Below are positions 8,165 to 60,876 of a DNA stretch of 64,000 bases, in pieces. Each line of letters begins with the position of its first letter. The stretch's first letter is position 1. The position numbers and the translations under genes are program-made. The notes below the pieces were generated by a model, which searched no databases, was not told the origin of the DNA, and saw only the letters and a program-made list of their open reading frames with translations. Source of the stretch: Paraescarpia echinospica (taxonomy: Eukaryota; Annelida; Polychaeta; Sabellida; Siboglinidae); the NCBI GenBank assembly GCA_020002185.1, contig CM034531.1, positions 46,306,029 through 46,370,028 of the forward strand. The letters run 5' to 3'.

Positions 8165-8905
8165 GTGCTGTTGGAAATTGTTTGAGATTTGTCACGGGGG
8201 GGGTAGTGTTTTAGATTTGTCACGGGGGTAGTGTTTGAGATTTGTCACGGGGGTAGTGTTTGTCACGGGGGTAATGTTTTTTGTCACGGGGGTAGTGTTT
8301 GAGATTTGTCACGGGTGGTAGTGTTTTAGATTTGTCACGGGGTTATTTTGAGTTGTCACGGGGGTAGTGTTTGAGATTTGTCACGGGGGGTAGTGTTTGA
8401 GATTTGTCACGGGGGTAGTGTTTGAGAGGGTAAGATTTGTCACGGGATTTGTAGGTGGTGTTTGAGATTTGTTGTAGTGTTTTAGATTGTCACTCACGGG
8501 GGTTTGTCACGGGGGTAATGTTTTAGATTTGTCACGGGGGTAGTGTTTGAGATTTGTCACGGGTAGTGTTTGAGATTTGTCACGGGGGTAGTGTTTTTTG
8601 AGATTTGTCACGGGGGGTAATATTTTAGATTTGTCACGGGGGGTAGTGTTTGAGATTTGTCACGGGGGTAGTGTTTGAGATTTGTCACGGGGGGTAATGT
8701 TTTAGATTTGTCACAGGGGTAGTGTTTGAGATTTGTCACGGGGGTAGTGTTTGAGATTTGTCACGGGGGGTAGTGTTTGAGATTTGTCACGGGGGGTAGT
8801 GTTTGAGATTTGTCACGGGGGTAGTGTTTTAGATTTGTCACGGGGGGTAGTGTTTGAGATTTGTCACGGGGGATACTGTTTTAGATTTACCATGGGGTAG
8901 TGTTG
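8165..8905. repeat. G-rich 26-27 bp minisatellite
   Basis: About 27 degenerate copies of a unit close to TTTGTCACGGGGGGTAGTG plus TTTGAGA or TTTTAGA. G-run length varies from 3 to 8, and some units are truncated or rearranged (8440-8510). Confidence 0.9.
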
Positions 8906-9505
8906 GAGATTGTTTGTTATTGTGACCATCCTCCAGGCTCACAAAAACCATCAAACTGAACCAGCGCTTGCCGAAATATCGAGAGGACTAAACATATATC
9001 CAGCCCCAACCTAAATACTGGCTTCGGTGGGTGTTTTTCCACCAAAGGCCGGTACATGGAGGCTGCGTCAACTTTGGAAGACGAAGAACCCCAATACATT
9101 CAAATGTCAAATGTAACTTATAACGGTGGAAGGATATTTTAAAATCTGAACATTAAAACGCAGTTTGACGGTCAATGTTATAAAATAAAAACATAGGACC
9201 TACACATGGTATTGCTAAAAAACGCAACATATCACAGTAAGCACGGGTTGAACTGCTGGCACAGCTCCACTATACAGACGTTGTACCGCTGGTACCAACA
9301 TGCCCCCGCTGATGCAGCGCTGCGCAATGAGGTATTGTCGGTGTGAAACAATGCAAACTCCCAGAGCGTTTGATGTCTGGACGTGCCGCAAATACTACAG
9401 GCGCAAGGCGTTAACTAACCACAAAAACAGTTGTTTGTTTTCTTCGAAAGCGTAATTCATAGTGGGAGCTGCCATGGACGCGCGATGGCGTGGCAACGGG
9501 ACCAT
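8906..9505. other. no assigned gene; minus frame 9099-8917
   Basis: The minus-strand frame reads KHPPKPVFRLGLDICLV then ALVQFDGFCEPGG. It looks protein-like, possibly a repeat-derived fragment, but I cannot assign a family and see no splice context. Confidence 0.3.
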
Positions 9506-22900: not shown

Positions 22901-25900
22901 GCATATAATTGCAGTTAGTCGTATGCTGAACTTATTTGTTGCTGCCACCGGCCACTTCAACTATGCCACAAGTGCTCGCATGTACCTCCAGTGGATGTTA
23001 GAGCTGCATTCTAGCCACCCCTGGTTGTTTGCACAATTTTCAGAGCATGGGTATCACACAGTGCGTCGAAACGATCGCTCCTGGGGTAGCTTGTGGACAG
23101 ATCTTACAATTGAGTAAGTAATGAGGCAATCTATCAAGAGCCGAGAAGGGTTAACTAGAGGACGAGGGAATGCTATGGGTGTACAGTATGCATAAGTGTG
23201 CCGAGGTGCACGAGGCCATGACCGATGTCACTGGACTTGTCTACAGAACCAGTGAGCAGCATGTGGAACTGAGGAGCGCCCGCTGTAATCGAGATTTTGA
23301 ACATAATCTTCAAATGGCTTGCTCAGCATGATCCCTTTGATGGTCAGAGGCACGAATTGAGATCGCTCTCATCAGGGTTAATTGCTACCGATGGTGGCGG
23401 TTTCAATTGTGATCAGGTCGAAGAAGTTGGTTTGTTGGTCCAAGAAAAGCTTGATAACGTCAAGGTTCATGAAGCATCGATGAAACGCAGTGAGACAGTC
23501 CGCGCTGTGATTCATGTGACAAAAGGAATCAAGATCGATCAGCAGACGGTGCATGTTGATCCACTTATTCAAGACTGCTGGTCCTTCTAGAACGATGTGA
23601 AGACAAAGCACCCTACTTTCAGTACGAGCTTACTCCGTCCCCGACATCTTTGTTCAAATACTTTGCCATGCGTAAGCCGAATAAGGCAATTTGGCCAACA
23701 CGTTGAGTAGTGACGTAACCATGGCGATAGCAGTACCAAACCAATGTCTTAGATGGAGGGGCCTTCTTCATCATGTGCGATGGCTGGCTGGAAAGACGTA
23801 TAAAGAAATGATCATGCAGAACCTTTTGTATGTCCATTACAGGTATGGAATATGTAGCATCGTTTTCGATGGCTATACAAGTGGACCCTCAATGAAAGAC
23901 CACGAGCACCAGAGAAGGGCTGGAAAAGCTTCAGCGGATGTTCAGATCAGCGAAGAAATACACTCTTACAGAAATCAGCAGCTCTTTCTCGCAAACGAAA
24001 AGAACAAGACCCATTTCATCAACCTACTGAGCCACTATCTCAGGTTGGACGGTCATGAAGTGATTCAGAGTGAGAGCGATGCTGATACCCAGATCGTTTC
24101 TGCAGCCCTTGACCTAGCTTCAGCTGATCAGCTTGCCACAGTGATAGCTGATGACACTGACGTCCTTGTTCTTCTGCTCTTTCACTGGAACACTTACGAT
24201 CAGAATCCAAGAAAGCATAGAAGAGACCTTTGAAGCTCATTAGTATCAGAGAAGCTGTAGGACACTTAGAGCAGACTGTTCTTCATCATCTTCTGGTAAT
24301 TCACGCATGGGGTGGTTACAATACGTCTGCTGCACGGAAAATACAGGATCCTCAAGCTTGTCCAGAAATCGCAAGAAATGCAACAATGGTGTGCTGTAGT
24401 TGCGCAGGAGGATGCGACCCAGGATGCTGTCGAAGAAGCCGGTGCATGGATCTTCATCAATATGTATGGCGGAAAGCCAGACGACTCATTGACCAAATTA
24501 CGACATGCTTGCTACAGGGAGCTTGCAGCAACAACCTCTTCCACGATGCGACCAGAGCGACTTCCCCCGACGGAACGAGCTGCATTACAACATAGCCTCA
24601 GAGTGCATTTGCAGGTTATGATTTGGAAGAGTTCGAATGTGTCTCAAATGGAACCGTGTGAACAGGGTGGATGGTGGAGAATGGTAGATTGACGCCTGTC
24701 ATGACTGACATGGAACCTGCCCCCGATGATCTTCTGAAGTATATGCGCCGCAAATGTAAGGCATTGTCACAAAATCCCTCCAGCACCAATCTTTATTCCA
24801 GTTGGAAAAGTGGGCTCTGTTGTGTGACTGCTTGTCGTGACTGTCGAGGTGAAGGTGTCAGAATGCTGCTCCAGTGCAACCGGAAGAGGACGAAATGCCC
24901 GAGGACGCGAACATCTTCTAGAGACTATTTTAGATGTATTTCCTAGATAGTACATATTCCGTAGAATGTATGCCATTCCAGTTTGTTCCCTGTTATTTTT
25001 TTGCAATGTTGCTTGGTCATGGCCCTACTCTTAGATAGCACTATGTGGGGATTCCATGTGTGTCCCTCATATTTTGATTTAATTGTAGTAGTGTTTTAGA
25101 TGAATAAAACAACATTTAGAAAATCATACTCATTTTCCTTTACTAATTCACAAATAAACGTTTTATGATTTTTATGTAAATTAACTATACTGATATAATG
25201 CAAACACACTAATAATGTCATACCCCCTCACATGAGGCTATTACAATGTCATACCCCATCACACGAGGCTATTACAATGTCATACCCCCTCACATGAGGC
25301 TATTACAATGTCATACCCCCTCACATGAGGCTATTACAATGTCATACCCCATCACATGGGGCTATTACAATGTCATACCCCCTCACACGAGGATATTACA
25401 ATGTCATACCACCTCACACGAGGCTATTACAATGTCATACCCCCTCATATGAGGCTATTACAATGTCATACCCCATCACATGAGGCTATTACAATGTCAT
25501 ACCCCATCACATGAGGCTATTACAATGTCATACCCCGTCACATGAGGCTATTACAATGTCGGACCCCCTCACATGAGGCTATTACAATGTTATACCCAGT
25601 CACATGAGGCTATTACAATATTATACCCAGTCACATGAGGCTATTACAATGTCATACCCCGTCACATGAGGCTATTACAATGTTATACCCAGTCACATGA
25701 GGCTATTACAATGTCATACCCCCTCACATGAGGCTATTACAATGTCGGACCCCCTCACATGAGGCTATTACAATGTTATACCCCCTCACATGAGGCTATT
25801 ACAATGCTGGATTAATCAAAGAGGAGTTTTCACCATCTTGTGGATCATAAAATTGTGCTTCTTTTGGTTCCATATATGCCTTGGTAACAATTTTTCCCGG

Positions 25901-40038: not shown

Positions 40039-40492
40039 ATGGTGGCAGCGACGAGAACAAACTAAGGGCGGCGGTAACGTATTGACACTGAAATCGTGAA
40101 CTTTGAATCAACTGATGAGTGAAAAATATATCTTTATTCGCCGTGCCTAAAATTTGTTCAAAAGAATCACGCGCAACATGAATGACGTCACTCGACAGCC
40201 GCGTCGGGATCAAAGTTCACATCACATGCAAATGGACAGCTACGTGTAAACGACAGAGACATTCAGCCTTCTGTAATTTTTTCCGGGACTCATAAAAGCG
40301 GTCTGGCTGGCTAGCAATTGAACACTGTTGCAGTCTGTTGTTATAGCTAGGCATATAACCCATATTGTCATAATTATAACTGACCGGGGCTCATTAAAGC
40401 AGCCTGGCTGGTAGTTTTAAGCTACACAATTTATAAGACACACAGCTAACACGCTACTAGTAGGCGCGAATTGGCTAACGACAACAGCGAAC

Positions 40493-42151
40493 ATGGATCA
40501 CGCACCAAGAATGGATTGGTCAGTGGAAAATCAAGCAGAAACATTCAAGTTATTTAAACAACGACTTGAATTATACTTCAAAGCAAAGCGAATTGAGGAA
40601 GGAGAACAAGTAGTACACATTCTACTACAAGTCGGCGATGAAGGACTACGCCGATACAACTCTTGGAGCCTCACAGAAGAGGAAAGGAAAGATCCTACCA
40701 AGATATTCGCCAAATTCGTTGAACAACTTGAGCCGTGTGAGAACTATCGCATCAGCCGGTTACGACTTATGCACTACCGTCAAAGGCCAGAAGAAAACTT
40801 AGATTGTTTCATAAACAGATGCAATTTGCTAGCTCTGAAATGCGAGTTTCAAGATAACGAATTGAATGAGCGACTCGTTGAACTGATCATAGCTGGTACG
40901 CCAATTCCTGATTACCAGAAGGAATTGCTTGGAAAAAACAAGAACTACACACTGGACGAAGCAATTCAGTTGGGACGAGCGTATGAAGCGAGTGCCTCCC
41001 ACGTCCAGCAGATTCGTGACATGGGAACAGTGGCGACAACTGCGGTGCATAGCTTCAGACGTGGTGCAAACTCATCCGCCAAATGTCGCAACTGTGGTCA
41101 ACAACACCCATTCAAACCGCGTGAAAGTTGTCCAGCGTTTGGAGTCAAGTGCAGAGCGTGCGGCAGAATGAACCACTGGGCGAAATGTTGTCTGACTAAG
41201 AAAAAACAGCATGCCAACAACATCACGCCACATCAGCGCGGACGTTCGAAATCCAGGAACAGGAACGAGCATCGGCAACGACAACATTCGTATGCAAACG
41301 AGAAGTCAATTCATCAAATGCGATCCAATGCACAGAACACTGACACACTTGAACAGTCATTTGATGCACTCAGTTTTCATGATGTGAAGGTGTCAGCAAT
41401 GTGTCTCGGGCAATATAATCGCGACGAAGCCTATGCGCAGGTGCAAATTAAACTGAGCAATCGTCCTGGCATCCACAATTTGAGCCTGAAAGTGGACACA
41501 GGCGCACAAGGCAATACACTTCCACTGCGAACATTTCGACGCATGTATCCGGACAAGTTAAATGCTGAGGGGTTCCTCGTTGATAACATCGTCGCAGCAA
41601 CAAGAGGCGCACGATTGACGGCGTACAATGGCACGTCCATCACATGCCATGGCGTGGTTAACATTTCATGCAGCTACAACAAGTCGGCATGGGGTGACAC
41701 TCGGTTCTACATCGTTGATGTAACCGGCCCTGCAGTGATTGGTCTTCAGTCGTGTGAAAAGTTGAAGCTGGTGACTCTACATTGCACCATCAAGACGCAC
41801 TCCTCAACAGAAGATAGACCTGCTACGGGACAATCAGCTGTCACGAGCACAGCCTCTATAAACAGCGTTGATGACCTCACTAGAATGTATCCAGAACAGT
41901 TTGACAGAATCGGCTGTTTTCCTGGTGACGTGAAGTTGGTGGTGGATCCCGCAGTTCCTCCTCGCGTGAATCCTCCAAGAAAGACACCAATTGCGCTAAA
42001 AGATGCTATCAAAAGCAGTCTTGACTCCATGGTGGAAAATGACGTCATACGCAAAGTGCATGAGAATGAGCCAACAGAGTGGGCCTCAAGCCTGGCATAT
42101 GCAAAGAAGAAATATGGGAGCCTAAGAATATGTTGGACCCCAAGTTCTTGA
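40493..42151 (+). pseudogene. gypsy II gag, protease and start of RT
   Basis: 552-codon frame. Residues about 1-180 are a gag capsid-like helical region. At about 200-240 there are two zinc knuckles (CRNCGQQHPF and CRACGRMNHWAKCC; the second is CX2CX4HX3C). Then comes the protease with VDTGAQGNTLPL and the RT start (NDVIRKVHENEPTEWASSLA). The frame ends prematurely after YGSLRIC because of a 1-base deletion near 42130; RT continues in the next frame. Confidence 0.9.
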
Positions 42152-43745
42152 ATCAGGCACTGAAGAGACCGCAACACAAAATTCCTACGTTGGAAGAACT
42201 TAATCACAAGTTCACAGGAGCAAGATATTTCTCCAAACTTGACGCCAAAGCCGGATACTGGGGTGTCCAGCTTCACAAGGACTCTCAACTCCTCACTACG
42301 TTTCAATCTCCTTACGGTCGATATGCCTTCAAGCGACTTCTATTCGGCTTGTCTGCATCACAAGACATCTTTCAATCCAGGATGGACATGATTCTCGAGC
42401 AGTGTGATGGAGCAGAGGGAATCGCTGACGACGTGGTGGTTTACGGTGCCACAGAAGATGAACATGACAGAAATCTTCATCAACACATGACCACTGTGTC
42501 GAGGAACGGGCTTGTCTTCAATTCCAGCAAGTGCCTGATCAAGAAGAGCAGTGTCCGTTTATTTGGCCTCATCTACGGCATCGATGGCATCAAACCTGAT
42601 CCGGACAGGATCCGCGATCTGCAAGACATACCACCACCTCGAGACAAGAAAGAGCTTCAGCAGTTTCTTGGACTCATGACCTTCTTGAGCCCATTCATAC
42701 CGAACTTGGCTGACAAGGCTTCAATGCTTCGAGATCTACTGAAAGAAGACAGCATGTTCATGTGGGAACCGCACCATCAAAGTTGCTTCGATGGTCTGAA
42801 ACATCTTGTCACCTCAAGGTCAAGTCTTCAATACTTCAACGTGTCCAAAACGCCCATACTTCAGACAGACGCTAGTCTCCTTGGACTTGGCGCGGCGTTA
42901 CTTCAAGAGAACGAGTCTGGTGTAATCCAACCGGTGGCATACGCATCGAAGAGTCTATCAAGCGCAGATAAACGATATGCCTGCATTGAGCGAGAGTTGC
43001 TAGCCATTGTTTTTGGCACACAACGGTTCCACACATACCTATACGGACGCAAGTTCAAGGTCGTCACGGACCACAAGCCTCTCGTTGCGATCATCCAGAA
43101 AGGTCTTGTCAACTCTCCACCGCGACTACAAAGAATGCTCCTCAAACTGCAAGGGTATGACATGGAAGTTGAATACCAACCAGGAAAGGACATTGTCCTT
43201 GCGGACACATTCTCGCGTCTTCCAAGTACGCACAACACAGAAACGATCGACCTTGATGTTCGTGTTGACTTCGTCCGATTCTCTGATGAACGCATCCAAG
43301 AGCTGAGGAACAAGACGAAGGCTGATCCAGTTCTCCAAGCACTCTCCGAAACGATCGTGACTGGATGGCCCGAAACAATAAAGGAGTTGCCAACTAGCAT
43401 CCGTTCGTACTGGTCGTTCCGCGATGAACTCTCCGAGGAAGATGGTATCCTATTGAAAGGAACACGAGTCGTCATTCCTGAGAGCATGCAGACATTCATA
43501 CTGGGGACACTACACTACGGTCACCTCGGCATAGAGAAGACGAGACTCAGAGCAAAAGACTCTGTGTGTTGGATCAACATCAATCGTGACATTGAGACTA
43601 CAGTCAAGTCGTGTGGCATCTGTCAAGAACACCAACCAGCGCAGCAGCACGAGACGCTACAGCCGCACGAAGTACCGAGTAGACCTTGGGAAGTGGTTGG
43701 TACAGACATGTTCTTCTTCAACGACGCAGACTGGCTCATCTTTTG
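42125..43745 (+). pseudogene. gypsy II RT, RNase H and integrase N-terminal half
   Basis: Continuation of pol: SPYGRYAFKRLLFGLSASQD; catalytic GIADDVVVYG; RNase H LQTDASLLGLGAALLQ and ADKRYACIERELLAIVFGTQ; integrase zinc-binding HYGHLGIEKTRLR...CGICQEHQP; and GTDMFFFN with the first integrase Asp. A frameshift near 43740 moves the rest into another frame. Confidence 0.9.
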
Positions 43746-44596
43746 CGGACTACTATTCAAAATTTCCCATCGTGCGCAAAATGCCGAAGCCATGTCTAAG
43801 CTCAACCGTCGTTTCTGTCACAAAGCAGATCTTCAGCGAGACAGGCGTTCCTATGCGTGTCGTGTCGGACAATGGCCCGCATTTCGCCAGTGCATGCTAC
43901 ACAGACCTGTCAAAGAAGATGGCATTCCAACACGTAACGTCTTCGCCGAGGTATCCACGCTCAAACGGCTTCATCGAACGCCAAATCCAAACCGTGAAGC
44001 ATGTCATGAAGAAGGCGAGGCAAAGTGGGCAGGATCTCGACTTGGCGCTACTGTGTTTGCGAACAACGCCAATTGACAGCAAACTTCCAAGTCCAGCAGA
44101 GCTCCTCAATGGTCGCAAAGTACAGTCAACTCTTCTGACGAAAATCGTTGACACACGCCAAGATCATGACGATATGAGAACGAGGCTACAAGAGCGACAG
44201 GACAAGATGACGTTTCAGCACGATCAACACGCAAGATATCTCCCGCCTCTGCACAACGGTCAAGCAGTTCGCTTCCGTGATCAAGACGGCCGGTGGAGAC
44301 CTGCGACGGTCCTTGACAAAAGACCGAATCCAAGATCGTACATTCTCACGACACCGAGCGCAAGCACTATCCGAAGAAACAGAAATCAAATCCGAGACAA
44401 CTCGACTCACCCGATCGTCAGGAGAGTATCGTTTGCCAGTCCGACTACAATCCAGCCCGCTCCAGCTGTTGTGGATTCAACTACTCCCACGAAGACTACA
44501 GACGGCTCGGCTGAGAACATTGTTCAAAATAATACAACTGGACTATATGTGACCTGCTCTGGTCGTCATATTAAGCAGCCTCAGCGCTATGCATGA
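43740..44596 (+). pseudogene. gypsy II integrase C-terminal half
   Basis: Contains VVSDNGPHFASACYTDLS (second catalytic Asp), YPRSNGFIERQIQTVKHV (catalytic Glu) and a basic C-terminal domain (RFRDQDGRWRPATVLDKRPN), ending SGRHIKQPQRYA. Confidence 0.9.
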
Positions 44597-48756: not shown

Positions 48757-48898
48757 ATGTATCAACCGCCTCCTTATGGCTGTCGTCCTCCCATGCAAGA
48801 TCCCGCTGGTCCACCGCCGTGCTACGGAGGGCCACCGCCGGGACCACCGCCGCCAATGTGTTGGGGACCGCCCGGTCCTGCACGGCATCACGGACGTG
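48757..48898 (+). CDS. proline/glycine-rich protein, exon 1
   Basis: ATG at 48757 opens MYQPPPYGCRPPMQDPAGPP and continues with PPGPPPPMCWGPPGPARHHG. It ends at a donor G|GTAAAT (phase 1). The phase matches the acceptor at 62551, so exons 1 and 2 join to 132 codons. The product is a low-complexity Pro/Gly-rich N-terminus of the kind common in RNA-binding and splicing proteins, but I do not recognise the gene. The 13.65 kb intron carries the Harbinger array. Confidence 0.75.
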
Positions 48899-49091
48899 GT
48901 AAATTGGTTTGTCACATACAGTCCGTACTTTAGTTTGAACTAAAAATGTTGATAAGCTGAACAACTATCTACTATCCCTTGATCTAAAAAATTTGATAAT
49001 CGGCTTAGACCTCGGAGTGTTTCTGTGTAGGCATTCGACGATTCGTTATGTGTAAAGACTAACTTCACTAAGGCTAAGCCTAAGGCCCCTG

Positions 49092-49145
49092 GGGCCGGTT
49101 TCATGAAGCGTACTTAAACTACGCGGTTACTTAGCGCTATGCAAG
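49092..49145. repeat. left terminal inverted repeat of Harbinger element
   Basis: First 18 bases match the right end with one change; the next 35 are degenerate but alignable. Confidence 0.8.
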
Positions 49146-49325
49146 TGCATAAACTCCAATTCTTGCGTAGCTAAATAGTTGCGTAAAATTAAGCAAAGCG
49201 GGTTTCATGTAGCGCGCATGACCTATTTCTTAACTAAGTAGGCGCGTAAAACTGTCACGTGGTTAGATTAGCGTCATGATACGGGTAACCCCCGGGATTC
49301 CCCTTTCCATTTTCCCGCTAGCAAC

Positions 49326-49405
49326 ATGGCAACAGCAAGCGACGCTGCCGGTTCCGAAAAAAGAGAAAGAAAATCGAATTTCAGTGATGATGAGTTGAGC
49401 TGTTT
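49326..49405 (+). pseudogene. N-terminal fragment of a Myb/SANT-like Harbinger protein
   Basis: ATG at 49326 reads MATASDAAGSEKRERKSNFS then DDELSCL. This resembles the start of the Myb-like DNA-binding proteins encoded by Harbinger elements ('...KRERKPNFSDAEL'). It is cut off after about 27 codons, where transposase sequence begins on the other strand. Confidence 0.6.
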
Positions 49406-49444
49406 GCGCTGTTGTGCTGCATTTGTGATGTGGATAAATGGCGT
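49405..49444 (-). pseudogene. transposase remnant downstream of the array
   Basis: On the minus strand the last array unit reads DWLLT and continues PFIHITNAAQQRKQL. This is the family sequence that normally follows GDSGY...WLLTP in HARBI1-type transposases. The rest, including the catalytic Glu region, is deleted. Confidence 0.8.
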
Positions 49445-52400
49445 GAGCAGCCAGTCTTGGAGCTTGTAGCCGCTGTCACCGAGGATGTATCCTTCCAGTG
49501 TGAGCAGCCAGTCTTGGAGCTTGTAGCCGCTGTCACCAAGGATGTATCCTTCCAGTGTGAGCAGCCAGTCTTGGAGCTTGTAGCCGCTGTCACCGAGGAT
49601 GTATCCTTCCAGTGTGAGCAGCCAGTCTTGGAGCTTGTAGCCGCTGTCACCGAGGATGTATCCTTCCAGTGTGAGCAGCCAGTCTTGGAGCTTGTAGCCG
49701 CTGTCACCGAGGATGTATCCTTCCAGTGTGAGCAGCCAGTCTTGGAGCTTGTAGCCGCTGTCACCGAGGATGTATCCTTCCAGTGTGAGCAGCCAGTCTT
49801 GGAGCTTGTAGCCGCTGTCACCGAGGATGTATCCTTCCAGTGTGAGCAGCCAGTCTTGGAGCTTGTAGCCGCTGTCACCGAGGATGTATCCTTCCAGTGT
49901 GAGCAGCCAGTCTTGGAGCATGTAGCCGCTGTCACCGAGGATGTATCCTTCCAGTGTGAGCAGCCAGTCTTGGAGCTTGTAGCCGCTGTCACCGAGGATG
50001 TATCCTTCCAGTGTGAGCAGCCAGTCTTGGAGCTTGTAGCCGCTGTCACCAAGGATGTATCCTTCCAGTGTGAGCAGCCAGTCTTGGAGCTTGTAGCCGC
50101 TGTCACCGAGGATGTATCCTTCCAGTGTGAGCAGCCAGTCTTGGAGCTTGTAGCCGCTGTCACCGAGGATGTATCCTTCCAGTGTGAGCAGCCAGTCTTG
50201 GAGCATGTAGCCGCTGTCACTGAGGATGTATCCTTCCAGTGTGAGTGGCCAATCTTGGAGCATGTAGCGACTGTCACCGAGGATGTATCCTTCCAGTGTG
50301 AATGGCCAGTCTTGGAGCTTGTAGCCACTGTCACCGAGGATGTATCCTTCCAGTGTGAGTGGCCAGTCTTGGAGCTTGTAGCCTCTGTCACCGAGGATGT
50401 ATCCTTCCAGTGTGAGCAGCCAGTCTTGGAGCTTGTAGCCACTGTCACCGAGGATGTATCCTTCCAGTGTGAGCAGCCAGTCTTGGAGCTTGTAGCCACT
50501 GTCACCGAGGATGTATCCTTCCAGTGTGAGCAGCCAGTCTTGGAGCTTGTAGCCACTGTCACTGAGGATGTATCCTTCCAGTGTGAGCAGCCAGTCTTGG
50601 AGCTTGTAGCCACTGTCACTGAGGATGTATCCTTCCAGTGTGAGCAGCCAGTCTTGGAGCTTGTAGCCGCTGTCACCGAGGATGTATCCTTCCAGTGTGA
50701 GCAGCCAGTCTTGGAGCTTGTAGCCGCTGTCACCGAGGATGTATCCTTCCAGTGTGAGCAGCCAGTCTTGGAGCTTGTAGCCGCTGTCACCAAGGATGTA
50801 TCCTTCCAGTGTGAGCAGCCAGTCTTGGAGCTTGTAGCCACTGTCACCGAGGATGTATCCTTCCAGTGTGAGCAGCCAGTCTTGGAGCTTGTAGCCGCTG
50901 TCACCGAGGATGTATCCTTCCAGTGTGAGCAGCCAGTCTTGGAGCTTGTAGCCGCTGTCACCAAGGATGTATCCTTCCAGTGTGAGTGGCCAGTCTTGGA
51001 GCATGTAGCCGCTGTCACCAAGGATGTATCCTTCCAGTGTGAGCAGCCAGTCTTGGAGCTTGTAGCCGCTGTCACCGAGGATGTATCCTTCCAGTGTGAG
51101 CAGCCAGTCTTGGAGCATGTAGCCGCTGTCACCAAGGATGTATCCTTCCAGTGTGAGCAGCCAGTCTTGGAGCATGTAGCCGCTGTCACCAAGGATGTAT
51201 CCTTCTAGTGTGAGCAGCCAGTCTTGGAGCTTGTAGCCGCTGTCACCGAGGATGTAACCTTCCAGTGTGGGCAGCCAGTCTTGGAGCTTGTAGCCGCTGT
51301 CACCAAGGATGTATCCTTCCAGTGTGAGCGGCCAGTCTTGGAGCATGTAGCCGCTGTCACCAAGGATGTATCCTTCCAGTGTGAGCAGCCAGTCTTGGAG
51401 CTTGTAGCCGCTGTCACCGAGGATGTATCCTTCCAGTGTGAGCAGCCAGTCTTGGAGCATGTAGCCACTGTCACCGAGGATGTATCCTTCCAGTGTGAGC
51501 AGCCAGTCTTGGAGCATGTAGCCGCTGTCACCGAGGATGCATCATCCTTCCAGTGTGAGCAGCCAGTCTTGGAGATGTAGCTGTCACCAAGAAGGATGTA
51601 TCCTTCCAGTGTGAGCACAGTCTTGAGCATGTAGCCACTCGTCACCGCAGGATGTATCCTTCCAGTGAGCAGCCAGTCTTGAGCATGTAGCTGTCACCGA
51701 GGATGTATCCTTCCAGTGTGGAGCAGCCAGTCTGGAGTTTGTAGCCGCTGTCACCGAGGGATGGAATCCCTTCCAGTGTGAGCAGCCAGTCTTGAGCTTG
51801 TAGCCACTGTCACCTTCGGGAGGGGATGTATCCCTTCCAGTGTGAGCAGCCAGTCTTGAGCTTGTGGCCACTGCCTTAGGATGTATCCTTCCAGTGTGAG
51901 CAGCCAGTCTTGGAGCATGTAGCCGCTGTCACCGAGGATGTATCCTTCCAGCGTGAGCAGCCAGTCTTGGAGTTTGTAGCCGCTGTCACCGAGGATGTAT
52001 CCTTCCAGTGTGAGCAGCCAGTCTTGGAGCTTGTAGCCGCTGTCACCAAGGATGTATCCTTCCAGTGTGAGCAGCCAGTCTTGGAGCTTGTAGCCGCTGT
52101 CACCGAGGATGTATCCTTCCAGTGTGAGCAGCCAGTCTTGGAGCTTGTAGCCGCTGTCACCGAGGATGTATCCTTCCAGTGTGAGCAGCCAGTCTTGGAG
52201 CTTGTAGCCGCTGTCACCGAGGATGTATCCTTCCAGTGTGAGCAGCCAGTCTTGGAGCTTGTAGCCGCTGTCACCAAGGATGTATCCTTCCAGTGTGAGC
52301 AGCCAATCTGGAGCTTGTAGCCGCTGTCACCGAGGATGTATCCTTCCAGTGTGAGCAGCCAGTCTTGGAGCTTGTAGCCGCTGTCACCGAGGATGTATCC

Positions 52401-55400
52401 TTCCAGTGTGAGCAGCCAGTCTTGGAGCTTGTAGCCGCTGTCACCGAGGATGTATCCTTCCAGTGTGAGCAGCCAGTCTTGGAGCTTGTAGCCGCTGTCA
52501 CCGAGGATGTATCCTTCCAGTGTGAGCAGCCAGTCTTGGAGCTTGTAGCCGCTGTCACCGAGGATGTATCCTTCCAGTGTGAGCAGCCAGTCTTGGAGCA
52601 TGTAGCCGCTGTCACCGAGGATGTATCCTTCCAGCGTGAGCAGCCAGTCTTGGAGCTTGTAGCCGCTGTCACCGAGGATGTATCCTTCCAGTGTGAGCAG
52701 CCAGTCTTGGAGCTTATAGCCGCTGTCACCAAGGATGTATCCTTCCAGTGTGAGCAGCCAGTCTTGGAGCTTGTAGCCGCTGCACCGAGGATGTATCCTT
52801 CCAGTGGGAGCAGCCAGTCTTGGAGTTTGTAGCCACTGTCACCGAGGATGTATCCTTCCAGTGTGAGCAGCCAGTCTTGGAGCTTGTAGCCGCTGTCACC
52901 GAGGATGTATCCTTCCAGTGTGAGCAGCCAGTCTTGGAGCTTGTAGCCGCTGTCACCGAGGATGTGTCCTTCCAGTGTGAGTGGCCAGTCTTGGAGCTTG
53001 TAGCCACTGTCACCGAGGATGTATCCTTCCAGTGTGAGCAGCCAGTCTTGGAGCTTGTAGCCGCTGTCACCGAGGATGTATCCTTCCAGTGTGAGCAGCC
53101 AGTCTTGGAGCTTGTAGCCGCTGTCACCGAGGATGTATCCTTCCAGTGTGAGCAGCCAGTCTTGGAGCATGTAGCCACTGTCACCGAGGATGTATCATTC
53201 CAGCGTGAGCAGCCAGTCTTGGAGCTTGTAGCCACTGTCACCGGGGATGTATCCTTCCAGTGTGAGCAGCCAGTCTTGGAGCTTGTAGCCGCTGTCACCG
53301 AGGATGCATCCTTCCAGTGTGAGCAGCCAGTCTTGGAGCATATAGCCGTTGTCACCAAGGATGTATCCTTCCAGTGTGGGCAGCCAATCTTGGAGCTTGT
53401 AGCCGCTGTCACCAAGGATGTATCCTTCCAGTGTGAGCAGCCAGTCTTGGAGCTTGTAGCCGCTGTCACCGAGGATGTATCTTTCCAGGGTGAGCAGCCA
53501 GTCTTGGAGCTTGTAGCCGCTGTCACCGAGGATGTATCCTTCCAGTGTGAGCAGCCAGTCTTGGAGCTTGTAGCCGCTGTCACCGAGGATGTATCCTTCC
53601 AGTGTGAGTGGCCAGTCTTTGAGCTTGTAGCCGCTGTCACCGAGGATGTATCCTTCCAGTGGGAGCAGCCAGTCTTGGAGCTTGTAGCCGCTGTCACCGA
53701 GGATGTATCCTTCCAGTGTGAGCAGCCAGTCTTGGAGCATGTAGCCACTGTCACCGAGGATGTATCCTTCCAGCGTGAGCAGCCAGTCTTGGAGCTTGTA
53801 GCCGCTGTCACCGAGGATGTATCCTTCCAGTGTGAGCAGCCAGTCTTGGAGCTTGTAGCCGCTGTCACCAAGGATGTATCCTTCCAGTGTGAGCAGCCAG
53901 TCTTGGAGCTTGTAGCCGCTGTCACCGAGGATGTATACTTCCAGTGTGAGCAGCCAGTCTTGGAGCTTGTAGCCGCTGTCACCGAGGATGTATCCTTCCA
54001 GTGTGAGCAGCCAGTCTTGAAGCTTGTAGCCGCTGTCACCGACGATGTAACCTTCCAGTGTGGGCAGCCAGTCTTGGAGCTTGTAGCCGCTGTCACCAAG
54101 GATGTATCCTTCCAGTGTGAGCAGCCAGTCTTGGAGCTTGTAGCCGCTGTCACCGAGGATGTATCTTTCCAGGGTGAGCAGCCAGTCTTGGAGCTTGTAG
54201 CCGCTGTCACCGAGGATGTATCCTTCCAGTGTGAGCAGCCAGTCTTGGAGCTTGTAGCCGCTGTCACCGAGGATGTACCTTCCAGTGTGGGCAGCCAGTC
54301 TTGGAGCTTGTAGCCGCTGTCACCGAGGATGTATCCTTCCAGTGTGAGCAGCCAGTCTTGCTTGTAGCCGCTGTAGAGCTTGTAGCCGCTGTCACCGAGG
54401 ATGTATCCTTCCAGTGTGAGCAGCCAGTCTTGGAGCTTGTAGCCGCTGTCACCGAGGATGTATCCTTCCAGTGTGAGTGGCCAGTCTTGGAGCTTGTAGC
54501 CGCTGTCACCGAGGATGTATCCTTCCAGTGTGAGCAGCCAGTCTTGGAGCTTGTAGCCGCTGTCACCGAGGATGTATCCTTCCAGTGTGAGCAGCCAGTC
54601 TTGGAGCTTGTAGCCGCTGTCACCTAGGATGTATCCTTCCAGTGTGAGCAGCCAGTCTTGGAGCTTGTAGCCGCTGTCACCAAGGATGTATCCTTCCAGT
54701 GTGAGCAGCCAGTCTTGGAGCTTATAGCCGCTGTCACTGAGGATGTATCCTTCCAGTGTGAGCAGCCAGTCTTGGAGCTTGTAGCCGCTGTCACCAAGGA
54801 TGTATCCTTCCAGTGTGAGCAGCCAGTCTTGGAGCTTGTAGCCACTGTCACCGAGGATGTATCCTTCCAGTGTGAGCAGCCAGTCTTGGAGCTTGTAGCC
54901 GCTGTCACCGAGGATGTATCCTTCCAGTGTGAGCAGCCAGTCTTGGAGCTTGTAGCCGCTGTCACCGACGATGTAACCTTCCAGTGTGGGCAGCCAGTCT
55001 TGGAGCTTGTAGCCGCTGTCACCAAGGATGTATCCTTCCAGTGTGAGCAGCCAGTCTTGGAGCTTGTAGCCGCTGTCACCGAGGATGTATCCTTCCAGGG
55101 TGAGCAGCCAGTCTTGGAGCTTGTAGCCGCTGTCACCGAGGATGTATCCTTCCAGTGTGAGCAGCCAGTCTTGGAGCTTGTAGCCGCTGTCACCGAGGAT
55201 GTATCCTTCCAGTGTGAGCAGCCAGTCTTGGAGCTTGTAGCCGATGTCACCGAGGATGTATCCTTCCAGTGTGAACAGCCAGTCTTGGAGCTTGTAGCCG
55301 CTGTCACCGAGGATGTATCCTTCCAGTGTGAGCAGCCAGTCTTGGAGCTTGTAGCCGCTGTCACCGAGGATGTATCCTTCCAGTGTGAGCAGCCAGTCTT

Positions 55401-58400
55401 GGAGCTTGTAGCCGCTGTCACCGAGGATGTATCCTTCCAGTGTGAGCAGCCAGTCTTGGAGCATGTAGCCGCTGTCACCGAGGATGTGTCCTTCTAGTGT
55501 GAGCAGCCAGTCTTGGAGCTTGTAGCCGCTGTCACTGAGGATGTATCCTTCCAGTGTGAGCAGCCAGTCTTGGAGCTTGTAGCCGCTGTCACCGAGGATG
55601 TATCCTTCCAGTGTGAGCAACCAGTCTTGGAGCTTGTAGCCGCTGTCACCGAGGATGTATCCTTCCAGTGTGAGCAGCCAGTCTTGGAGCTTGTAGCCGC
55701 TGTCACTGAGGATGTATCCTTCCAGTGTGAGCAGCCAGTCTTGGAGCTTGTAGCCGCTGTCACCGAGGATGTATCCTTCCAGTGTGAGCAACCAGTCTTG
55801 GAGCTTGTAGCCGCTGTCACCGAGGATGTATCCTTCCAGTGTGAGCAGCCAGTCTTGGAGCTTGTAGCCGCTGTCACCAAGAATGTATCCTTCCAGTGTG
55901 AGCGGCCAGTCTTGGAGCTTGTAGCCGCTGTCACCAAGGATGTATCCTTCCAGTGTGAGCGGCCAGTCTTGGAGCTTGTAGCCGCTGTCACCAAGGATGT
56001 ATCCTTCCAGTGTGAGCAGCCAGTCTTGGAGCTTGTAGCCGCTGTCACCAAGGATGTATCCTTCCAGTGTGAGCAGCCAGTCTTGGAGCTTGTAGCCACT
56101 GTCACCGAGGATGTATCCTTCCAGTGTGAACAGCCAGTCTTGGAGCTTGTAGCCGCTGTCACCGAGGATGTATCCTTCCAGTGTGAGCAGCCAGTCTTGG
56201 AGCATGTAGCCGCTGTCACCGAGGATGTATCCTTCCAGTGTGAGCGGCCAGTCTTGGAGCTTGTAGCCGCTGTCACCGAGGATGTATCCTTCCAGTGTGA
56301 GCAGCCAGTCTTGGAGCTTGTAGCCACTGTCACTGAGGATGTATCCTTCCAGTGTGAGCAGCCAGTCTTGGAGCTTGTAGCCGCTGTCACCGAGGATGTA
56401 TCCTTCCATTGTGAGCAGCCAGTCTTGGAGCTTGTAGCCGCTGTCACCGAGGATGTATCCTTCCAGTGTGAGCAGCCAGTCTTGGAGCTTGTAGCCACTG
56501 TCACCAAGGATGTATCCTTCCATTGTGAGCAGCCAGTCTTGGAGCTTGTAGCCACTGTCACCGAGGATGTATCCTTCCATTGTGAGCAGCCAGTCTTGGA
56601 GCTTGTAGCCGCTGTCACCGAGGATGTATCCTTCCAGTGTGAGCAGCCAGTCTTGGAGCATGTAGCCGCTGTCACCGAGGATGTATCCTNNNNNNNNNNN
56701 NNNNNNNNNNNNNNNNNNNNNNNNNNNNNNNNNNNNNNNNNNNNNNNNNNNNNNNNNNNNNNNNNNNNNNNNNNNNNNNNNNNNNNNNNNNNNNNNNNNN
56801 NNNNNNNNNNNNNNNNNNNNNNNNNNNNNNNNNNNNNNNNNNNNNNNNNNNNNNNNNNNNNNNNNNNNNNNNNNNNNNNNNNNNNNNNNNNNNNNNNNNN
56901 NNNNNNNNNNNNNNNNNNNNNNNNNNNNNNNNNNNNNNNNNNNNNNNNNNNNNNNNNNNNNNNNNNNNNNNNNNNNNNNNNNNNNNNNNNNNNNNNNNNN
57001 NNNNNNNNNNNNNNNNNNNNNNNNNNNNNNNNNNNNNNNNNNNNNNNNNNNNNNNNNNNNNNNNNNNNNNNNNNNNNNNNNNNNNNNNNNNNNNNNNNNN
57101 NNNNNNNNNNNNNNNNNNNNNNNNNNNNNNNNNNNNNNNNNNNNNNNNNNNNNNNNNNNNNNNNNNNNNNNNNNNNNNNNNNNNNNNNNNNNNNNNNNNN
57201 NNNNNNNNNNNNNNNNNNNNNNNNNNNNNNNNNNNNNNNNNNNNNNNNNNNNNNNNNNNNNNNNNNNNNNNNNNNNNNNNNNNNNNNNNNNNNNNNNNNN
57301 NNNNNNNNNNNNNNNNNNNNNNNNNNNNNNNNNNNNNNNNNNNNNNNNNNNNNNNNNNNNNNNNNNNNNNNNNNNNNNNNNNNNNNNNNNNNNNNNNNNN
57401 NNNNNNNNNNNNNNNNNNNNNNNNNNNNNNNNNNNNNNNNNNNNNNNNNNNNNNNNNNNNNNNNNNNNNNNNNNNNNNNNNNNNNNNNNNNNNNNNNNNN
57501 NNNNNNNNNNNNNNNNNNNNNNNNNNNNNNNNNNNNNNNNNNNNNNNNNNNNNNNNNNNNNNNNNNNNNNNNNNNNNNNNNNNNNNNNNNNNNNNNNNNN
57601 NNNNNNNNNNNNNNNNNNNNNNNNNNNNNNNNNNNNNNNNNNNNNNNNNNNNNNNNNNNNNNNNNNNNNNNNNNNNNNNNNNNNNNNNNTGAGCAGCCAG
57701 TCTTGGAGCTTGTAGCCACTGTCACCGAGGATGTATCCTTCCAGTGTGAGCAGCCAGTCTTGGAGCTTGTAGCCGCTGTCACCGAGGATGTATCCTTCCA
57801 GTGTGAGCAGCCAGTCTTGGAGCTTGTAGCCACTGTCACTGAGGATGTATCCTTCCAGTGTGAGCAGCCAGTCTTGGAGCTTGTAGCCGCTGTCACCGAG
57901 GATGTATCCTTCCAGTGTGAGTGGCCAGTCTTGGAGCTTGTAGCCACTGTCACTGAGGATGTATCCTTCCAGTGTGAGCAGCCAGTCTTGGAGCTTGTAG
58001 CCACTGTCACTGAGGATGTATCCTTCCAGTGTGAGCAGCCAGTCTTGGAGCATGTAGCCGCTGTCACCGAGGATGTATCCTTCCAGTGTGAGCAGCCAGT
58101 CTTGGAGCTTGTAGCCGCTGTCACCGAGGATGTATCCTTCCAGTGTGAGCAGCCAGTCTTGGAGCTTGTAGCCGCTGTCACCGAGGATGTATCCTTCCAG
58201 TGTGAGCAGCCAGTCTTGGAGCTTGTAGCCGCTGTCACCGGATGTATCCTTCCAGTGTGAGCAGCCAGTGGAGCTTGTAGCCGCTGTCACCGAGGATGTA
58301 TCCTTCCAGTGTGAGCAGCCAGTCTTGAGCTTGTAGCCGCTGTCACCGAGGATGTATCCTTCCAGTGTGAGCAGCCAGTCTTGGAGCTTGTAGCCACTGT

Positions 58401-60074
58401 CACCGAGGATGTATCCTTCCAGTGTGAGCAGCCAGTCTTGGAGCTTGTAGCTGCTGTCACCAAGGATGTATCCTTCCAGTGTGAGCAGCCAGTCTTGGAG
58501 CTTGTAGCCGCTGTCACCAAGGATGTATCCTTCCAGTGTGAGCAGCCAGTCTTGGAGCTTGTAGCCACTGTCACCTAGGATGTATCCTTCCAGTGTGAGC
58601 AGCCAGTCTTGGAGCTTGTAGCCGCTGTCACCAAGGATGTATCCTTCCAGTGTGAGCAGCCAGTCTTGGAGCTTGTAGCCGCTGTCACTGAGGATGTATC
58701 CTTCCAGTGTGAGCAGCCAGTCTTGGAGCTTGTAGCCACTGTCACTGAGGATGTATCCTTCCAGTGTGAGCAGCCAGTCTTGGAGCTTGTAGCCGCTGTC
58801 ACTGAGGATGTATCCTTCCAGTGTGAGTGGCCAGTCTTGGAGCTTGTAGCCGCTGTCACCAAGGATGTATCCTTCCAGTGTGAGTGGCCAGTCTTGGAGC
58901 TTGTAGCCGCTGTCACCGAGGATGTATCCTTCCAGTGTGAGTGGCCAGTCTTGGAGCTTGTAGCCGCTGTCACCGAGGATGTATCCTTCCAGTGTGAGCA
59001 GCCAGTCTTGGAGCTTGTAGCCACTGTCACCAAGGATGTATCCTTCCAGTGTGAGCAGCCAGTCTTGGAGCATGTAGCCGCTGTCACCGAGGATGTATCC
59101 TTCCAGTGTGAGCAGCCAGTCTTGGAGCATGTAGCCGCTGTCACGAGGATGTATCCTTCCAGTGTGAGCAGCCAGTCTTGGAGCTTGTAGCCACTGTCAC
59201 CGAGGATGTATCCTTCCAGTGTGAGTGGCCAGTCTTGGAGCTGTAGCCACTGTCACCGAGGATGTATCCTTCCAGTGTGAGCAGCCAGTCTTGGAGCTTG
59301 TAGCCGCTGTCACCGAGGATGTATCCTTCCAGTGTGAGCAGCCAGTCTTGGAGCTTGTAGCCGCTGTCACCGAGGATGTATCCTTCCAGTGTGAGCAGCC
59401 AGTCTTGGAGCTTGTAGCCGCTGTCACCGAGGATGTATCCTTCCAGTGTGAGCAGCCAGTCTTGGAGCTTGTAGCCGCTGTCACCAGGATGTATCCTTCC
59501 AGTGTGAGCAGCCAGTCTTGGAGCATGTAGCCACTGTCACCGAGGATGTATCCTTCCAGTGTGAGTGGCCAGTCTTGGAGCTTGTAGCCGCTGTCACCGA
59601 GGATGTATCCTTCCAGTGTGAGCAGCCAGTCTTGGAGCTTGTAGCCGCTGTCACCGAGGATGTATCCTTCCAGTGTGAGTGGCCAGTCTTGGAGCATGTA
59701 GCCACTGTCACCGAGGATGTATCCTTCCAGTGTGAGCAGCCAGTCTTGGAGCTTGTAGCCGCTGTCACCGAGGATGTATCCTTCCAGTGTGAGCAGCCAG
59801 TCTTGGAGCTTGTAGCCGCTGTCACCGAGGATGTATCCTTCCAGTGTGAGCAGCCAGTCTTGGAGCTTGTAGCCGCTGTCACCGAGGATGTATCCTTCCA
59901 GTGTGAGCAGCCAGTCTTGGAGCTTGTAGCCACTGTCACCGAGGATGTATCCTTCCAGTGTGAGCAGCCAGTCTTGGAGCATGTAGCCACTGTCACCGAG
60001 GATGTATCCTTCCAGTGTGAGTGGCCAGTCTTGGAGCTTGTAGCCGCTGTCACCAAGGATGTATCCTTCCAGTG
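49445..60074 (-). repeat. 57-bp tandem array derived from a HARBI1-like transposase
   Basis: About 9.6 kb of visible sequence, roughly 165-170 units, plus a 1 kb gap of N. On the minus strand each unit encodes LEGYILGDSGYKLQDWLLT (19 residues). This is exactly the transposase segment lying between RWPGSVH...FESAPWP upstream and PFIHITNAAQQR downstream. Because 57 is divisible by 3 and no frame of the unit has a stop, three frames stay open for kilobases (also EQPVLELVAAVTEDVSFQC on + and TGCSHWKDTSSVTAATSSK on -). Common variants: ACCGAGG/ACCAAGG/ACTGAGG, GAGCAGCC/GAGTGGCC/GAGCGGCC, CTTGTAG/CATGTAG, GCCGCTG/GCCACTG. Multi-unit blocks recur (for example near 54041 and 54967). Confidence 0.97.
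56690..57689. other. assembly gap, exactly 1,000 N
   Basis: The round number indicates a placeholder of unknown true size. It falls inside the array, so the array length is a minimum estimate and uncertain. Confidence 0.98.
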
Positions 60075-60700
60075 GCCAGGGTGCCGACTCGAACACATTG
60101 AATACGGGACACTCCCGCAGAATGCGTGCGTTGTGCACCGATCCCGGCCACCTCACAACACTGTTCATGATCATGGCATCAGCATCACAGATCAGTTGGA
60201 CATTTATGTTATGGTCGTTTTTACGATTGATGTATTAATGTTCGTTGACCGATTGTGTTGCAGTTTTAATATGCATACAGTCGACTCAGGTGATAACATT
60301 AGGGACGTTTGCGATGTTGTTATGACACTGCACTTTCATGGCTTCCGTCTCGCCTATTTGGGGGAAGCGTACGTGACGTGGCAGTAGCCTGGCGAATGCA
60401 GGTGGAACTCTCTGAACAGTTTTACTCACGGTTGCCTTGCTAACACAAAACAAATCGCCTACAACCACATGCAAAGAAACGTAATACGATGAGTATTTGC
60501 AGTGTCGGTGTTAAAAAACCCTTCCGTGACACTATCGAGATGTCGTCACCGACTAAATCTATTAAATGCCTGATATTCTCCCGACGAAAACGATACCGGT
60601 CAAACAACTCAACGAGTGTGTCATGTATCTAAACACTCTCTCGCCGGAAAATTCGTCTAACTGCGCCGTTTATCTGATGAACTGGTCGTAAAGCCGCCAT
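60075..60700 (-). pseudogene. HARBI1-like transposase, N-terminal half (dead)
   Basis: Read leftward: HTH region VVGDLFCVSKATVSKTVQRV and LLPRHVRFPQIGETEAM (60474-60330), NVPNVIT, stop TGA (60286-60288), VDCMHIKTATQSVNEH (first catalytic Asp in VDC), stop TAA (60235-60237), NRKNDHNINVQLICDADAMI, MNSVVRWPGSVHNARILREC and VFESAPW, then the array. The order and spacing match HARBI1/PIF transposases. Two stops plus damage further upstream (60480-60700) show it is not functional. Confidence 0.88.
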
Positions 60701-60821
60701 TAAGAACAACTTAGTGGAGTTACGCCACGGGGGTAGGTGCCGTAGCCTAAGTAGGGCGTTGCACCCACTGCGTAGTCTAAGTAGACGACATGAAACGCGA
60801 AATCTTCTGCGATGACCTTTG

Positions 60822-60873
60822 TAGCACTAAGTAACCGTTCGTAGCCGCTAAGTAGGCTTCATGAAACCGGCCT
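60822..60873. repeat. right terminal inverted repeat of Harbinger element
   Basis: Reverse complement begins AGGCCGGTTTCATGAAGCCT and aligns with the left end. Confidence 0.8.
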
Positions 60874-60876
60874 CTG

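Follow-up and report, generated by a model that had tools for sequence, protein, structure and literature searches.

How does one short piece of a transposase gene come to be repeated well over a hundred times inside a transposon? The question is raised by a 64,000-nucleotide stretch of the siboglinid annelid Paraescarpia echinospica (contig CM034531.1, positions 46,306,029 to 46,370,028 of the forward strand; this whole stretch is called the window and is numbered from 1), in which a 57-bp tandem repeat lies between two remnants of a DDE transposase gene. We find that the array very probably belongs to a non-autonomous transposon of the PIF/Harbinger type, with a CWG target-site duplication (TSD), and that its internal satellite was born from a segment of the element's own transposase.

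The repeat array and its source

The array occupies the following positions of the window, as located by Tandem Repeats Finder (TRF) and by parsing of the units.

49443..56689, minus strand: first part of the 57-bp array, 127 units
56690..57689, no strand: assembly gap of exactly 1000 N, a run of N between the array parts
57690..60074, minus strand: second part of the 57-bp array, 42 units

A 57-bp repeat at 49445 to 60074 had been claimed from the sequence alone in an original prediction, and TRF recovers period 57 over 49443-60074, with 126.9 copies and 93% matches in the first part and 42.0 copies and 96% matches in the second. Wrap-around alignment gives 127 + 42 = 169 units with the gap not counted, which is a minimum for this array given the 1000 N inside it. 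Most units (149 of 169) are free of indels, and of the 20 gapped ones three are merely cut by the gap or by the array end; real or apparent indels break the reading frame in the other 17. Many of these frame-breaking indels crowd into 51494-51894, a messy stretch that may be an assembly error. The mean pairwise identity of the units is 96.3% (166 units), and in the first part adjacent units are more similar than shuffled ones (0.9663 against 0.9626, sd 0.0009), as is predicted by local unequal exchange. Two further properties were looked for and rejected. Higher-order repeats were not found, as there is no repeated run of units with at least four variant units and the best lag in the first part is 1. 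Hairpin-driven instability is not supported either, since two unit dimers fold not clearly better than their shuffles: for one of them z is -1.57 and 16 of 200 shuffles do as well, for the other z is -0.32 and 69 of 200 do.

Translated on the minus strand, the unit encodes the 19 residues LEGYILGDSGYKLQDWLLT. The prediction had taken these for a piece of a HARBI1-type transposase with the matching protein on both sides of the array, and both parts of this claim hold. The upstream flank with the first units matches the Pfam family DDE_Tnp_4 (PF13359) with an E-value of 1.3e-18. The 12 residues downstream, PFIHITNAAQQR, taken with one unit, match the next positions of DDE_Tnp_4 with an E-value of 0.002, a weak score of 18.2 bits where the curated cut-off is 24.8 bits, but can be matched position for position to relatives, for example PFIHAVNAEQQR. 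A read-through protein used as query has 421 homologues at an E-value of at most 0.001, and among the 120 listed for a survey of this block 107 cover it. The unit is one contiguous segment of the transposase, present once and 18-21 residues long in 106 of these 107, and the Asp of GDSGY, which we take to be the second catalytic acid of the transposase, is identical in 107/107. Relatives that lack the segment at this position would have spoken against such a source; it is single in the 106 homologues and likewise in 11/11 loci of the same genome that are described below.

The exception, P0038, is a related transposase, a database homologue on a 542,526-bp contig (source ena). It carries a different in-frame unit of 27 residues, overlapping GDSGY, three times. 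Given this triplication, the GDSGY spot may be prone to tandem duplication. Of two comparisons of the array in its open frames with 5.8 billion proteins, each scoring the roughly 8000 best word-sharing candidates, one gave only P0038, with its different repeat, and the other no match. A DNA pattern and a related protein, P0005, had no match in viral and bacterial/archaeal contigs, and a sequence search of the PDB gave no match.

The element that carries the array

The array is enclosed in an element of 11,782 bp (gap included) that ends in inverted repeats and has CTG on each side. Its other features are these.

49089..49091, no strand: left TSD, CTG (CTG/CTG in plus orientation, CAG/CAG in coding orientation)
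49092..49139, plus strand: left terminal inverted repeat, matching the right end at 84% along 51 bp
49326..49407, plus strand: 5' fragment of the parent's Myb/SANT-like gene (MATASDAAGSEKRERKSNFSDDELSCL); 49087-49407 aligns with locus L063
49407..49442, minus strand: the 12 transposase codons downstream of the unit, which an internal deletion has placed next to the Myb fragment
60075..60826, minus strand: degraded N-terminal part of the DDE transposase with stops and a frameshift
60821..60873, minus strand: right terminal inverted repeat, pairing with the left end
60874..60876, no strand: right TSD, CTG, same as the left

The transposase in the window has no C-terminus and is interrupted by stops and a frameshift. 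Of the Myb gene, which lies on the opposite strand, only the first ~27 codons remain. This fragment itself has no Pfam match, and the corresponding open reading frame (ORF) of the complete relative L063 matches Myb_DNA-bind_5 (PF13873) with an E-value of 1.3e-18. The original prediction had placed the expansion within the transposase gene; judged by these alignments, the host copy is a two-gene Harbinger element shortened by an internal deletion. A DDE_Tnp_4 transposase is recognised in the window piece and more strongly in the relative L056 (E 9.2e-29), a Myb/SANT second gene is present in L063, with a fragment kept in the window, and a 3-bp CWG TSD is identical in 9 of 12 two-ended copies. 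In the other three the two sides are one base apart (CAG/CTG twice, TAG/CAG once). By their description, TSD and gene content appear to fit the CWG group NuwaI of PIF/Harbinger (PHIS).

The parent gene and the family in the same genome

The same-genome searches covered 1.08 Gb in 3111 contigs. A complete element was found at C2:3245339-3249767, where loci L063 and L050 overlap, with CTG on both sides and with both the Myb gene and the transposase. It shares 94% identity with the window on the Myb side and only ~70% on the transposase side, a disparity that suggests, from these identities, exchange between Harbinger lineages. Eleven less degraded transposase loci (L050-L060), 69-78% identical to P0005, carry one unit each. 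Ten of them continue beyond the unit into the C-terminal segment and L060 loses the frame there; L059 is without the N-terminal part, and several contain stops. At position 12 of the unit all of them have Met, where most array units have Lys. A second, more distant transposase family, ~50-53% identical to P0005 (for example C14:10263561-10264334), has many stop-free frames of about 326-372 codons and, by this token, is possibly active.

The element in the window is one of many. Its transposase-side flank has at least 43 matching places (best 40 of 142 candidates scored), its Myb-side flank at least 41 (best 40 of 610) and P0005 at least 140 (best 135 of 1657). The array query gave 238 matches, and all 9 array places among the matches listed carry one or both element flanks; no free-standing array outside the element was seen among these 9, with the best candidates scored. 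The original prediction had proposed a single expansion of roughly 165-fold or more within one gene. The size of the expansion stands, at no fewer than 169 units here, and its uniqueness does not, as there is a family of array-bearing elements. The head-to-tail, near-identical units of element origin, in arrays at many loci, are what is expected of a satellite.

One-unit elements and intermediate copy numbers, which the prediction had suggested searching for, both exist. Copies of a derivative of ~1.22 kb have one unit, 2, 4 or 7 units, and longer arrays have, by the spacing of their flanks, 44, 46, 47, 66, 72, 78, 106 or 128 units. Exactly one unit is present in 12 distinct copies of the flank set, with an identical deletion junction in the 11 that were read far enough, and L061 is a further one-unit deletion copy. 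Pairing by flank coordinates gave 32 elements: 13 with at most one unit, four with 2-7, 14 spaced at 40 units or more, and a remaining one whose array of 1.8 kb includes an N gap. The 14 long spacings run from 43.7 to 186.5 units, gaps included, and one of them, at C11:18548106, is due to an insertion rather than to an array. The pairing used 37 of the 43 transposase-flank matches and 38 of the 41 Myb-flank matches, the six omitted transposase flanks having the array side missing, being fragments or being a second piece of the same element. It also took two transposase flanks and one Myb flank from the loci read and three elements from the P0005 search, and 10 of the 42 entries stayed unpaired. 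Two long arrays, L009 (66 units) and L014 (46 units), were read flank to flank and are gap-free; four (C4:19.9M, C4:24.6M, C5:41.98M and C11:60.7M) are known by spacing alone, and in five others the sequence was read for the first ~26 units only.

Two local arrangements were also seen among the copies. At L017 (C2:73990773-73993642) elements with 7 and 2 units stand head to tail, 20 bp apart, and at L040 (C6:67370525-67372424) two single-unit copies are inverted to each other in a palindrome-like manner.

When the insertion at C11:18548106 and three elements with N gaps are set aside, the 28 paired elements fall into 17 with at most 7 units and 11 spaced at ~44 to 128, with none between, several of the 11 being known from spacing and at most their first units. 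It is conceivable, and we put it forward only tentatively, that array length is bistable, either short (7 units or fewer) or long (~44 or more).

One founding duplication or many

The copies could all descend from one founding duplication, or the same segment could have expanded independently in many insertions with breakpoints that were always identical. The join between units, CTCAC to ACTGG, is informative here, as it is predominant at 19/19 multi-unit loci read. The edges of the unit in single-unit copies read GGCCACTGG...CTCACG, and from the comparison of the array join with these edges the founding duplication would have had ~1 bp of homology. Independent events would thus have had to find the same join at all 19 loci with just this single base as a guide. 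In addition, a rare double variant, CCA at codon 17, is common to 14 of 15 long arrays, where it is found in 59 of 676 units, and is absent from the 12 single-unit copies. The divergence of units is 4.2% between loci against 4.0% within a locus, with a mean differentiation of 0.045 over 15 arrays. In these two comparisons, and in the branch support, label shuffles and rooting given below, the element read as both L029a and L030 is counted twice; in the pooled comparisons the window array was parsed to 147 units, and eight of the 15 arrays contribute ~26 units each.

There are several observations that weigh against a simple history of one duplication carried along by transposition. The unit class changes 9 times on a tree of the flanks of 30 copies (L029a and L030, the same element, counted once here), and a single clade is rejected. 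This tree is itself poorly supported, with 3 of 28 branches starred. The single-unit labels are scattered on it about as by chance (188 of 500 shuffles as low), with 99 of 500 for the array labels; with the outgroup, the figures are 68 of 500 and 34 of 500. Rooted by four copies that bear the C-terminus, it has arrays on early and late branches, with weak basal support. Close relatives can be far apart in unit number, as L017 with 2 units and L021 with 47 by flank spacing share 98.9% flank identity. The lack of CCA in single-unit copies is weak evidence, because contractions would lack it too, the last unit ending in CTG in all five closed multi-unit copies inspected. The order of units, compared over at most the first 40 of each array, is seldom common to loci, with 12 of 105 pairs beating all 12 shuffles where ~8 are expected, so that in-place growth from short arrays together with exchange between copies fits as well as movement of long arrays.

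Only L047 and L048 clearly have a unit order in common, with the first six units matching at variable sites before the two diverge. These loci (C11:21.83M and 21.82M) lie 8.7 kb apart and offer a snapshot of array turnover after duplication.

The scatter of unit number on the tree, the L017 and L021 pair, and the different threefold repeat of P0038 over the same motif are the points in favor of independent expansion. With the uniform join and the common CCA set against them, we consider it unlikely, though less so than any of the other alternatives below. The most suitable reading is that the arrays probably go back to one founding duplication, which transposition distributed while units were gained and lost over and over, possibly with exchange between copies.

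Coding potential of the array

An array whose period is 3 x 19 and whose frames are long and open might be a protein repeat kept by selection, and the amplification had been described as in frame. The long open frames are no evidence of coding, since the repeat can be read for hundreds of codons in its other frames too. In 17 of the 32 copies read, one and the same codon upstream of the array is a stop, from which much of the family would have spread as non-coding DNA. The distinct variants in the 15 arrays comprise 78 nonsynonymous, 23 synonymous and 4 stop changes, a synonymous share of 22% (23/105) against the 23-29% expected, and 59 of the 676 units are gapped. CpG transitions account for 338 of the 875 changes in the pooled units, which would be as expected of methylated repeats.

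Some evidence does point the other way. In the window alone 14 of 37 distinct variants are synonymous, above the 23-29% expected, and in the seven-unit copy L017a a frame unbroken over 262 residues leads to the array and continues into its units, so that an early coding phase is possible. Nevertheless, the pooled variant spectrum and the upstream stop lead us to reject selection on a repeat protein, which we regard as highly improbable. The claim of an amplification in frame could not be upheld, as 17 units of the window are interrupted, the gene is broken and the pooled synonymous share is at expectation; that the unit is a multiple of three looks like coincidence.

Two more alternatives are as poorly placed. 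Capture of a pre-existing satellite by the element, which some elements may have done according to one report (PMC11136912), was rejected and has very little probability left, given that the unit is collinear with the transposase gene, is single in the less degraded copies and in the one-unit derivatives, and has element flanks at all 9 of the array places listed. An assembly artefact, for which the N gaps in several arrays and the messy stretch of the window might speak, is hardly credible with arrays at many independent loci, two of them free of gaps from flank to flank.

A proposed history

With these alternatives set aside, the birth of the satellite from the element's own transposase can be laid out as a series of steps. 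At the start stands a relative of ~4.4 kb with convergent Myb and transposase genes and a single 57-bp segment, of which the genome holds an example. An internal deletion then brought the transposase codons immediately beyond the segment up against the beginning of the Myb gene, and the one-unit derivative resulted. A single tandem duplication of ACTGG...CTCAC with its minimal end homology may next have founded the array. As the element spread, the number of units went up and down repeatedly, and it now spans 1 to at least 169. Unequal exchange is a likely engine of these changes, as is slippage during the repair of double-strand gaps after excision, and the derivative was probably mobilised in trans by the transposase of relatives that share its inverted repeats. 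The pooled units vary like non-coding DNA, which marks the last step, with the array behaving like a satellite rather than like a repeat protein.

Neighborhood of the element

A proline-rich ORF at 48758-48901, without a Pfam match, has a possible splice donor behind it, ~190 bp short of the element, which may therefore be inserted in a first intron. Elsewhere in the window there are long reading frames of a Gypsy-like retrotransposon at 40421-44596, with reverse transcriptase, RNase H and integrase zinc-binding domains in 42070-44073, and two minisatellites, at 8179-8911 (26-bp unit x28) and at 25214-25806 (31-bp unit x19, 92% matches).

Comparison with known systems

The following comparisons are with the published systems as they are described in the accessible parts of the sources cited. 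Satellites born inside transposons have been described before, including in non-autonomous Harbinger elements (PMC7290377; PMC9659126), which qualifies the novelty suggested in the original prediction. No satellite from a Harbinger transposase coding segment was recognised in the literature searched, subscription journals being mostly outside its reach. VaccSat7 of Vaccinium likewise has tandem satellite units in a non-autonomous Harbinger with 3-bp TSDs; there, 3-5 units come from the terminal part and the TSD is mostly TAA/TTA (PMC7290377), whereas in the family described here the unit is a catalytic coding segment, its number runs from 1 to at least 169 and the TSD is CWG. In miDNA4 of Xenopus tropicalis the monomer likewise arose within a non-autonomous element, which carried it through the genome in a burst, but this is a Tc1/mariner miniature inverted-repeat transposable element (MITE), and its row in the review's table does not assign the monomer to the coding sequence of a transposase (PMC9659126). 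The TPE repeats of hobo are a variable tandem repeat within a transposase reading frame, with a 9-bp unit in 3 to 7 copies in a working gene (PMC4807377). Our arrays, with their indels, the upstream stop and no synonymous excess in the pooled units, show no reading frame kept under selection, L017a alone being open to its array. PROsat, Pvc 20 (LINE-1 ORF2) and HinfI (CR1) resemble them in having a monomer from element coding sequence; their source is a retrotransposon, and the portion of the review available mentions no within-genome series from one unit upward (PMC9659126). The NuwaI group of PHIS shares a DDE transposase, a Myb/SANT second gene and a 5'-CWG-3' TSD, with no mention of an internal satellite in the available part of its description (PMC4482050). 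More broadly, the literature describes central parts of DNA transposons as satellite sources (PMC12628747), internal tandem repeats in Merlin elements (PMC8101967) and satellites related to transposable elements in oysters (PMC11136912), and there is a general review on the subject (PMC12692304). What is unusual here is the catalytic coding source, the size, a birth series that can be followed in a single genome and the apparent gap between short and long arrays.

Significance

The origin of satellites from unique sequence is usually inferred from end products. In this case one genome holds the parent gene and the deleted derivative, both with one unit, as well as more than 30 copies that range from a single unit to the array of the window. 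These copies are natural replicates of expansion and collapse, on which one can test how fast and by what mechanism a satellite takes off. If array length were indeed bistable, a short array past a threshold would run away, perhaps through transposition-coupled gap repair, and then spread as a mobile satellite, and the birth, take-off and collapse of a satellite would become measurable on one defined sequence. The family shows, besides, that the seed of a satellite can be a catalytic coding segment of a DNA transposon, beyond the terminal or untranslated parts.

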